Below the pieces are notes generated by a model that was given only the letters and a program-made list of their open reading frames with translations, ran no database searches and was not told where the DNA came from. This document shows positions 31,600-57,173 of a stretch of DNA of 64,000 nt, in pieces. This DNA comes from Rhodobacteraceae bacterium Water-Bin34. GTDB lineage: Bacteria > Pseudomonadota > Alphaproteobacteria > Rhodobacterales > Rhodobacteraceae. Position 1 is the first letter of the stretch. The number at the start of each line of letters is the position of its first letter. The DNA is taken from positions 1-64,000 of the forward strand of contig FZLS01000002.1 in NCBI GenBank assembly GCA_900197625.1, given 5' to 3'. Made by a program: the position numbers and the translations under genes.

Positions 31600-31971
31600 T
31601 TACTTCTTTGGTCGATAATTTGTTTGTTCAGCGATACGTGCAGATTTACCACGACGATCACGTAAGTAGTAAAGTTTTGCACGTCGTACACGACCGCGAC
31701 GAACCACTTCAATATTATCAATATTTGTTGAATATAATGGGAATACGCGTTCTACGCCTTCACCAAATGATATCTTTCGAACTGTAAATGATGCAGCGAT
31801 AGTGTTTCCACCTTGGCGCGCAATACATACACCTTCATAGTTCTGGATACGAGAACGTGTGCCCTCTGTTACCTTAAAGCCTACACGAACTGTGTCGCCT
31901 GCTTTGAAATCTGGAATATCTTTGCTTAAAGTAGCAATTTGCTCTGCTTCAAGCTGTGCAATTAAATTCAT
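31600..31971 (-). CDS. rplS: 50S ribosomal protein bL19
   Basis: bL19 lies at the 30S-50S interface. The 123-residue product has the typical core ([56 protein letters not shown]). A Shine-Dalgarno (AGGA) lies seven bases before the ATG. It is separated from trmD by an unusually long structured leader of 341 bases, so it may have its own promoter or post-transcriptional control. Confidence 0.97.
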
Positions 31972-32312
31972 AACGTTTTCCTTTTACACCCTTTGAGGGA
32001 ATTTTGGTTTTCCAATCCTAGAGCTCTTGGCCTTCTTCCGGTACTCCTTGGAGCCCGCCAGAGATTAAAATCGACGTTTCATGTTTCAGTTATTGGTCAA
32101 TTTAAAGAGAATTCATATACTATCCAAACCGAAGAAAGTTTTTATTTATATGACTTAAAATTGACTTCATAGCTGCCTACCTGGGAACGAATCCTAATGT
32201 AAGTTTGCGTGGTATATGTCGAAAGCATATAGACATCAAGGCCTCTTTCCGTAACTAATTCATTAGATATAGTCACATCTCTTCGATGGATAATTTTTAG
32301 TTTAAGATTTAG
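31972..32312 (-). promoter_or_regulatory. structured leader upstream of rplS
   Basis: A 341-base gene-free stretch. On the minus strand, 32063-32057 (CTCTGGC) pairs with 32031-32024 (GCCAAGAG, one bulge), enclosing a GC-richer, purine-rich segment. A tight CCCTCAAAGGG hairpin at 31999-31989 lies just before the ribosome site, and a further TATATG/CATATA hairpin lies at 32231-32213. This looks like a 5' leader for rplS, perhaps autoregulated by L19 as in other bacteria (inference). No reading frame of note is present. Confidence 0.5.
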
Positions 32313-33122
32313 TTAATCTTTTTCATTTAATTCATCAAATTTTTCCCAGAGATCTGGGCGGCGTTCTTTTGTTATTTTCTTGGACATTTCTGTACGCCAT
32401 TTCTCAACATTTGCGTGATGTCCAGATAGTAATACTTCTGGTATTCTTCGGCCACTCCATTCGGCAGGTTTTGTATACTGAGGGTGTTCTAGAAGCCCAT
32501 TCGAGTGACTTTCATCTTTTGCACTTTCAACATTGCCTAATACATTTGGTATGAGACGAACAGTTGCATCAATTAATGCTTGAGCAGCAATTTCCCCACC
32601 AGTAAGTACAAAATCACCAATAGAAATTTCTTCAACATCATATTCTTCTAAAACACGTTCATCAACACCTTCAAAACGACCACATAGTATAGTCATACCC
32701 TTTGCTTCACTCCAGGCTTGTGCCATCGATTGTGTTAATGGTTTTCCACGTGGTGACATGTATATAACTGGCCATAATTTTGGATCTACTGGAGTGCCAC
32801 GCCTAGCATCTTCTAACGCTGGACCCACTACGTCAGCTTTCAAAACCATGCCTGCCCCACCACCAGCTGGCGGATGATCTACATCTTTATGCTTTCCTAG
32901 ACCAAATCCTCTTAATTCAATTGTTTGTAATTGCCACAAACCTTCTTGGAGAGCTTTACCAGTTAATGAGCGATCTAAAACACCAGGAAAGGATTCTGGA
33001 AATAAGGTAATAACCTTTACAGTCCATGCGTTTTCAAGTTCTGGCGTATCTGTCATTAAAACACGAGGTTTCAGACTTGGTCTAATTGCAAGACGTCCAT
33101 GTGATTTAGATTTTTCACTCAT
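32313..33122 (-). CDS. trmD: tRNA (guanine-37-N1)-methyltransferase
   Basis: TrmD methylates G37 next to the anticodon to prevent +1 frameshifting. The 269-residue protein contains the SPOUT knot motifs (MSPRGKPLTQ, LCGRFEGVDER, IGDFVLTGGE) and the substrate region GGGAGMV. An N-terminal arm of about 33 residues before the usual start (VKVITLFPESFPG) is a feature I associate with Rhodobacterales TrmD. The ATG at 33122 overlaps the rimM stop by eight bases; an ATG at 33056 would remove most of the arm. Confidence 0.95.
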   Translation of the reverse strand: MSEKSKSHGRLAIRPSLKPRVLMTDTPELENAWTVKVITLFPESFPGVLDRSLTGKALQEGLWQLQTIELRGFGLGKHKDVDHPPAGGGAGMVLKADVVGPALEDARRGTPVDPKLWPVIYMSPRGKPLTQSMAQAWSEAKGMTILCGRFEGVDERVLEEYDVEEISIGDFVLTGGEIAAQALIDATVRLIPNVLGNVESAKDESHSNGLLEHPQYTKPAEWSGRRIPEVLLSGHHANVEKWRTEMSKKITKERRPDLWEKFDELNEKD

Positions 33123-36249: not shown

Positions 36250-36350
36250 CCTTTCCGCCAAAATATTTTCTCAAACGCATTTAACACCAGTGGGCGAAAC
36301 TCGCTGACTGGTGTCGATCCTGAGACCGGAAGTGATATAACTTCCATGAT
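36250..36350 (-). promoter_or_regulatory. hairpin-containing 5' leader of ffh
   Basis: Two stem-loops lie within 110 bases of the ffh start. One is ACACCAGT/ACTGGTGT (36284-36314) with an inner GCGA/TCGC stem; the other is GGAAGT/ACTTCC (36328-36345). An AAAGGG ribosome site follows close to the ATG. A regulatory leader is plausible, but I do not recognise a named RNA family. Confidence 0.4.
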
Positions 36351-57050: not shown

Positions 57051-57173
57051 GTTCATTCGGGAGCTAGAGGTGGCACTTTAGCAAGAATAGGGTGGACCAT
57101 GTTTCATGTGGCCGATTAGGATGTGATGCCCGCACAAACTATGACGTGAACATTAGAAAAGGTGAAGACGAGC

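Follow-up and report, generated by a model that had tools for sequence, protein, structure and literature searches.

By comparing the region between trmD and rplS, the gene for ribosomal protein L19, across Rhodobacteraceae, we found that rplS is preceded by a conserved promoter-like site, conserved helices and a predicted long-range pairing, and that roughly one in three of the relatives sampled has this unit embedded in the trmD frame. We consider it fairly probable that these parts make up one control system. In this scheme, rplS would be served by its own promoter plus a leader of about 230 nt, which would fold into a first hairpin at the 5' end, a second one with the loop UUCUUC, a core whose GAAGA loop pairs with that loop, and a small hairpin before the ribosome site, and which would govern rplS translation separately from trmD. 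The signal would most likely be free L19, which on the folded core would block ribosomes from rplS. In the ancestral form, promoter and leader would be written within the 3' third of trmD; many lineages, the one studied here among them, would carry a second, free-standing copy of that stretch and a trmD freed of the double constraint.

The window, that is the whole 64,000-nt stretch of DNA that was analysed, carries rplS at 31600..31971, followed by rpmE (L31), and trmD at 32313..33122 (start codon picked by its overlap with rimM), both on the minus strand. A preliminary description of this DNA had pointed to a 341-base gap separating the trmD stop from the rplS ATG, and it is found at 32312-31972 (minus strand). 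The helix proposed there is in place, with CTCTGG (32063-32058) followed by C and CCAAGAG (32030-32024) preceded by G, and so is CCCTCAAAGGG (31999-31989) before the rplS ribosome-binding site AAAAGGAAAA (31976..31985, minus strand). The latter is kept among close relatives in alignment A4, made of the window and 16 hand-picked relatives with the same leader type. Taken alone, the window sequence is of unremarkable stability (z = -0.54 over the gap as a whole and +0.67 over its final 104 nt). The preliminary description recognized no named alphaproteobacterial family for the leader, and an Rfam search returned no gathering-score match to the element in the window or in 8 relatives. The L19_leader model in particular matched neither at gathering score in these sequences nor permissively in the window region, where a permissive scan gave three matches, all sub-threshold. 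A permissive match of one relative (L104) to the mammalian lncRNA RF02267 was put down to chance (17.5 bits against a gathering score of 55, E 3.2e-4). Thus, single-sequence folding and Rfam do not mark the gap, and it is comparison that reveals more structure than chance. Elsewhere in the window, Rfam recognized the ffh sRNA (RF01793) at 36277-36328 (minus strand) just 5' of ffh, with 53.4 bits, as well as in 6 of the 8 relatives scanned, and a Rhodo-rpoB RNA (RF03074) at 57054-57142 (plus strand), whose 36.6 bits barely exceed the gathering score of 33.6.

For the comparison, rplS was located in 96 of 101 genomes, including the window's, and upstream DNA was obtained for 70. The core alignment comprises 49 of 58 family-level loci, nine being left out (L014, cut short; L030, with Ns; L042, L046, L051 and L055-L058, with no clear element by eye). 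Covariation in these 49 relatives and a covariance model delimit a core element at 32013..32063 (minus strand), which includes P1 (CUCUGG/CCAAGAG, 32063-32058 with 32030-32024), a P2/P3 hairpin (32057-32039), a purine-rich internal loop (32038-32031) and the 3' strand of helix P0 (32020-32013). The CCCTCAAAGGG hairpin, P4 (31989..31999, minus strand), stands directly 5' of the ribosome site. RNAalifold returned 19 pairs, 16 of them changed on both sides. In our 22-pair core structure, 90.6% of cells were paired (78.4% in shuffled alignments), 17 of the 22 pairs had changes on both sides (11.1 in shuffles) and 133 cells were double changes (44.9 in shuffles). The covariation score was 0.391, compared with 0.178 in shuffles, none of 500 reaching the real value, and at most 0.104 with partners slid. 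P4 had both-side changes in 5 of 5 pairs and 83.7% of cells paired in the same 49 relatives. The helices therefore covary beyond controls, and the compensatory changes whose lack would have spoken against the structure are present. Together, the covariation, the place directly before rplS and the absence of an Rfam family strongly support the structured cis-element of rplS that had been suggested; a conserved RNA structure directly upstream of its gene is what is expected of a ribosomal-protein leader.

A covariance model built from the 49 relatives, R1, matched one place only in the window's own genome and was found in 254 of 295 family genomes (253 of 294 genera), the 41 others being without a match under strict filters that lose weak matches. 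In a class-wide sample, and with weak matches lost in the same way, R1 was found in 3 of 240 genomes, all three members of Rhodobacteraceae; among the 237 without a match, the 20 listed with their kinship all lie outside the family. In 100 operon-derived loci, all with rplS (100/100), R1 matched 93 with E no higher than 1, including two weak matches (L181 and L178), and the 7 loci without a match were L165, L174 and five outgroups. Wherever the surroundings were read, the element precedes rplS. One genome (G040) has two matches in total, one of them strong (C197:3179-3301) and off its rplS contig (C321), which is either a second copy or contamination.

We then sorted 139 distinct loci, 127 from the family and 12 from outgroups, by the position of the trmD stop. 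A locus was called embedded when fewer than 100 nt separate the end of the trmD frame from rplS, so that the frame reads through the element region, and free when trmD ends earlier. Among the family loci, 46 of 127 were embedded and 73 free, with trmD outside the fetched stretch in the remaining 8. The window locus is of the free form. Among genomes labelled with the window's genus both states occur, three of them being embedded (G010, G012 and G029). The element was diverged or unclear in 4 of the 46 embedded loci (L055, L058, L198 and L174), and in typical ones it codes for the TrmD tail ...RRPDLWRAY...DPDEDQEL.

In the window, a predicted sigma-70-type promoter lies at 32211..32240 (minus strand), with the -35 box CTTGAT (32240-32235), 18 nt and the -10 box TATACC (32216-32211), and places the predicted transcription start near 32204, upstream of the helices. 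A generic promoter scan of the window did not list this site and gave sites no more frequent than in shuffles. Among free leaders, 69 of 77 reach a promoter score of at least 9 of 12 (shuffled-sequence mean 7.9), and the boxes are 18 nt apart in 66 of these 69. In the embedded form, the same CTTGAT-N18-TATACC pattern lies within trmD, 196 nt 5' of P1 where the distance was measured. It is present in 43 of 46 embedded loci (42 exactly, L095 having CTTGCT), with the whole leader between promoter and rplS, and is missing from L055, L058 and L198, which form the earliest branch. By contrast, it occurs in 0 of 73 trmD genes of free loci and in 0 of 12 outgroup trmD genes. Three free trmD genes (L160, L191 and L007) have CTTATACC with the other box missing. 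The window trmD has the codons CTC ATA CCA (32555-32547, minus strand), a partial likeness to the embedded promoter, and L007 has CTT ATA CCA at that site; both are perhaps traces of the embedded state. In the 43 embedded genes, synonymous choice at the site is close to fixed (CTT and ATA 100%, CGC 98%, GGG 95%), whereas the 72 free trmD genes have mixtures, and ATA is otherwise rare, at 68 of the 1951 Ile codons in the rest of these trmD genes. The protein there reads LIPRV in nearly all embedded forms, mostly LLPGV, LLPNV or LLPDV in free ones and LLPGV in outgroups. In named genomes the nested pattern was found in at least 119 stretches. Among the 80 matches listed, one is a MAG titled only Alphaproteobacteria, and the other 79 bear Rhodobacterales names whose genera we take to belong to the family. 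The conserved promoter-like site in embedded trmD is a candidate nested promoter of rplS.

Between promoter and core, two further domains can be drawn on the minus strand. Domain 1 is a candidate hairpin, CUUAC/GUAGG around GGAUUCG (32176..32203). A GANUCG-like motif occurs in many free leaders, and by eye the stem reads CUUAC/GUAGG or CUUGU/ACAGG in close relatives. Domain 2 (32126..32141) is a hairpin with a covarying stem and the loop UUCUUC (32136-32131), of which UCUUC (32135-32131) can pair with GAAGG (32031..32035; GAAGA in most relatives) in the core. This candidate contact, a kissing interaction or a pseudoknot, gives the leader a long-range pairing of the kind found in L20-type operators, as judged by covariation. 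The promoter, the domain-2 hairpin, the loop pairing and the trmD-embedded form all go beyond the preliminary description.

The contact was followed in the embedded whole-leader alignment of 42 loci (the 46 minus L055, L058, L198 and L174), where it joins UUCUUC, in the V-L-L codons of IPEVLLSG, with GAAGA in the TrmD tail. A 36-pair structure that includes it had 94.8% of cells paired (87.0 in shuffles), 108 double-change cells (28.0 in shuffles) and a covariation score of 0.257 (0.113 in shuffles, at most 0.072 when slid). First, the contact alone had 9 double-change cells compared with 1.5 in shuffles (reached by 0 of 500) and a covariation of 0.154 compared with 0.074 in shuffles and at most 0.123 when slid. 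Its key pair is UA in 32 loci, CG in 7, GC in 1 and other in 2, and most CG cases combine a synonymous Leu change from CTT to CTC with a compensating Glu to Gly change in the TrmD tail. Second, the domain-2 stem was 92.1% paired, with a covariation of 0.262 compared with 0.065 in shuffles. Counts of changed pairs and of pair types were near shuffles both for the contact (47 and 60 of 500) and for the stem (500 and 27 of 500). One pair of the stem is broken in 13 of the 42 sequences, as is one pair of the contact in 8.

In the free form, the hairpin loop is exactly complementary to the leader's own 4-nt core in 53 of 65 leaders, with 9.5 expected from shuffles; the 65 include those of four leaders with a misplaced internal loop (L124, L146, L148 and L031) that passed the filter. 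Among free lineages with an altered GAAG core, the loop is still complementary in L139, L155, L157, L019 and L039 (by script) and L189 (in A4), but not in L173. In A4, which leaves out same-genus free leaders such as L020, L022, L024, L030, L032, L039, L185, L193 and L197, a 22-pair structure (17 sequences) had 96.0% of cells paired (89.6 in shuffles), 39 double-change cells (11.2 in shuffles) and a covariation of 0.333 (0.195 in shuffles, at most 0.182 when slid); further pair types were not above shuffles (498 of 500). All five positions of the contact are paired in 17 of 17 sequences, one of them being CG in 15 and UA in 2, and the domain-2 stem covaries, with one of its four pairs failing in 8 of 17. 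RNAalifold also proposed that a 5' CUUGG pairs with the 3' strand of P1 (alignment A3, columns 5-12 with 244-251). One pair of it is UA in 22 sequences, CG in 6, UG in 4 and CA in 6, which lends weak support to a possible alternative fold.

As for function, we infer that the promoter is used, that L19 is the ligand and that it represses rather than activates. L19 sensing by the leader is plausible. In Caulobacter, a hairpin in the 3' end of trmD is needed for full rplS translation, and the 2021 study proposed L19 feedback without a test (PMC8144410, in its available text). The Rhodobacteraceae element resembles that of Caulobacter crescentus in position: in embedded lineages it too lies in the 3' coding end of trmD in an alphaproteobacterium, from where it would act on rplS. 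The same study (PMC8144410) describes one 23-bp hairpin, a trmD stop that overlaps with the start of rplS, transcription driven by the trmD promoter and a 12-bp match to 23S rRNA. By contrast, the Rhodobacteraceae leader has its own predicted promoter, about 230-300 nt, several domains with a loop-loop pairing, no 23S match found, and both free and embedded forms. It counts against our reading that Caulobacter, the one relative with experiments, has a hairpin that aids translation rather than repressing it (PMC8144410). R1 found no match outside the family in the sample of 240 class genomes, and homology of the two would be conjectural.

The Escherichia coli L20 system (PMC10931766 and PMC6962249) is laid out like the predicted embedded unit: the rpmI-rplT operator lies in and after the upstream gene, infC, which contains the promoter, and it has a long-range pseudoknot. 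It differs in its genes and protein and in its established ligand, that of Rhodobacteraceae being predicted here; escape from the upstream gene within one family is not described for it in the text available for these two sources. In Bacillus subtilis, L20 control is free-standing in a 5' leader, in contrast to its nested form in E. coli, and works by terminator attenuation (PMC10931766), whereas a scan of the window leader gave no terminator-like site. An L19 leader is also reported in Firmicutes and Flavobacteria (PMC7247131, in its available part). It too precedes rplS, in another lineage, and has no Rfam match here. We take this leader to be RF00556. According to a review, nothing is reported on how the trmD operon is regulated (PMC10931766), although the Caulobacter study of 2021 had described the trmD hairpin (PMC8144410). 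Our literature search, with most subscription papers outside its scope, recognized no published description of this rplS leader. Taking the Caulobacter hairpin and the E. coli L20 precedent together, we favour a translational operator with L19 feedback and place a ligand-free role second.

In that second reading, to which we give a real but clearly minor chance, the leader would be a constitutive translation aid or would serve ribosome loading or stability, and the Caulobacter hairpin may be of the same kind. Breaking the Caulobacter trmD stem lowers an rplS reporter and the double mutation largely restores it (PMC8144410, in its available text), which agrees with such a role. So does the lack of a 23S look-alike. 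Compared with 23S loci and their flanks in sense, the longest shared run was 10 nt for the window leader and 11 nt for the embedded consensus, shuffles of which gave a mean of 9.8 and a maximum of 15; we therefore rejected 23S rRNA mimicry, the sense runs being no longer than in shuffles. In antisense, the window leader had a 13-nt run that by position lies in the 23S-locus flank and an 11-nt run inside 23S. However, a long-range loop-loop pairing kept by paired changes, together with an elaborate core, suggests a specific partner. Most ribosomal-protein leaders with such elaborate cores are autogenous, which also counts against a ligand-free role.

The ligand could instead be L31 or another factor, which we regard as improbable. 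Of 163 loci, some of which share a genome, 150 have rpmE adjoining rplS, and several predicted L31 leaders are reported (PMC7247131, in its available part). But in 13 of 13 loci without an adjacent rpmE, R1 is still found before rplS, which favours L19 over L31.

We return to how the two forms are related. In the window, the noncoding stretch directly 5' of P1 (32065..32079, minus strand) resembles the trmD codons K-E-R-R-P-D, and the 5' strand of helix P0 is formed by its 3' part. Across free loci, the 20 nt 5' of P1 share on average 11 of the 16 specified bases with the embedded consensus, compared with 5.8 in shuffles (n=73); helix P0 may keep part of this likeness. Such a repeat of the trmD 3' end, with trmD and rplS 210 to 6521 bp apart in free loci, could suggest that the gap copy is a decaying relic or an attachment-site repeat left by insertions. 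This is very improbable, and we dismissed it on the covariation of free copies, which keep both compensatory pairing and promoter, unlike a relic. The trmD-rplS junction itself seems prone to insertion, with about 2.8 to 6.5 kb of extra DNA separating the two genes in L106, L127, L128, L141, L165, L186, L187, L192, L194 and L195. Least credible of all is that the embedded form is simply TrmD protein conservation resembling a promoter and an RNA: the codons do belong to a conserved enzyme, and a few outside the leader (e.g. 106 and 157) likewise vary less in embedded genes, but synonymous conservation peaks at the promoter, at the UUCUUC loop and in the core, and does so in embedded genes alone (43 vs 72 sequences), the protein sites differ (LIPRV vs mostly LLPGV), and Asp/Glu and Leu codons change their third bases in concert.

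To follow the two states through the family, we used a tree of ffh, rpsP, rimM, TrmD and L19 (129 taxa), on which parsimony gave 19 state changes and an embedded root; an 86-taxon subset gave 17 changes. The upstream genes alone (88 taxa) gave 21, compared with a mean of 28.7 and a minimum of 21 in 200 label shuffles. The 8 loci without trmD in reach were scored free where they entered a tree, and an rplS tree (31 changes, about 122 columns) was set aside. Scoring 11 of 12 outgroups as embedded by the gap rule alone, though none has the promoter, favours an embedded root, so that much of the weight for the root state falls on the early branches of the family, and in the earliest of these trmD extends up to rplS. 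Since errors in the trees inflate such counts and horizontal transfer may have occurred, we claim many switches and give no number; the trees imply, as far as sequences can tell, many changes between embedded and free. The full TrmD tree sorts well by state (9 changes, shuffled mean 39.3), and its N-terminal part poorly (27 changes, where shuffles average 38.6 with a minimum of 29), which traces most of the sorting to the third that bears the leader. We therefore rejected replacement of the whole trmD by transfer as the sole cause, and transfer of its leader-bearing third may have contributed. We infer that the embedded form came before the free one and that copying was the route. On balance we lean slightly towards a history in which the unit arose inside the trmD frame, with TrmD following RNA pairing rules, and was then repeatedly and independently copied out, the trmD codons relaxing.

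These results offer a testable rplS leader for a large bacterial family, and synonymous recoding of trmD in embedded species is expected to disturb rplS. The pairing of embedded and free forms provides a natural experiment in how a second layer of information is borne by a gene and later shed. If our reading is true, Rhodobacteraceae would contain a series of natural escapes from dual coding, and a single genus would still show both states.
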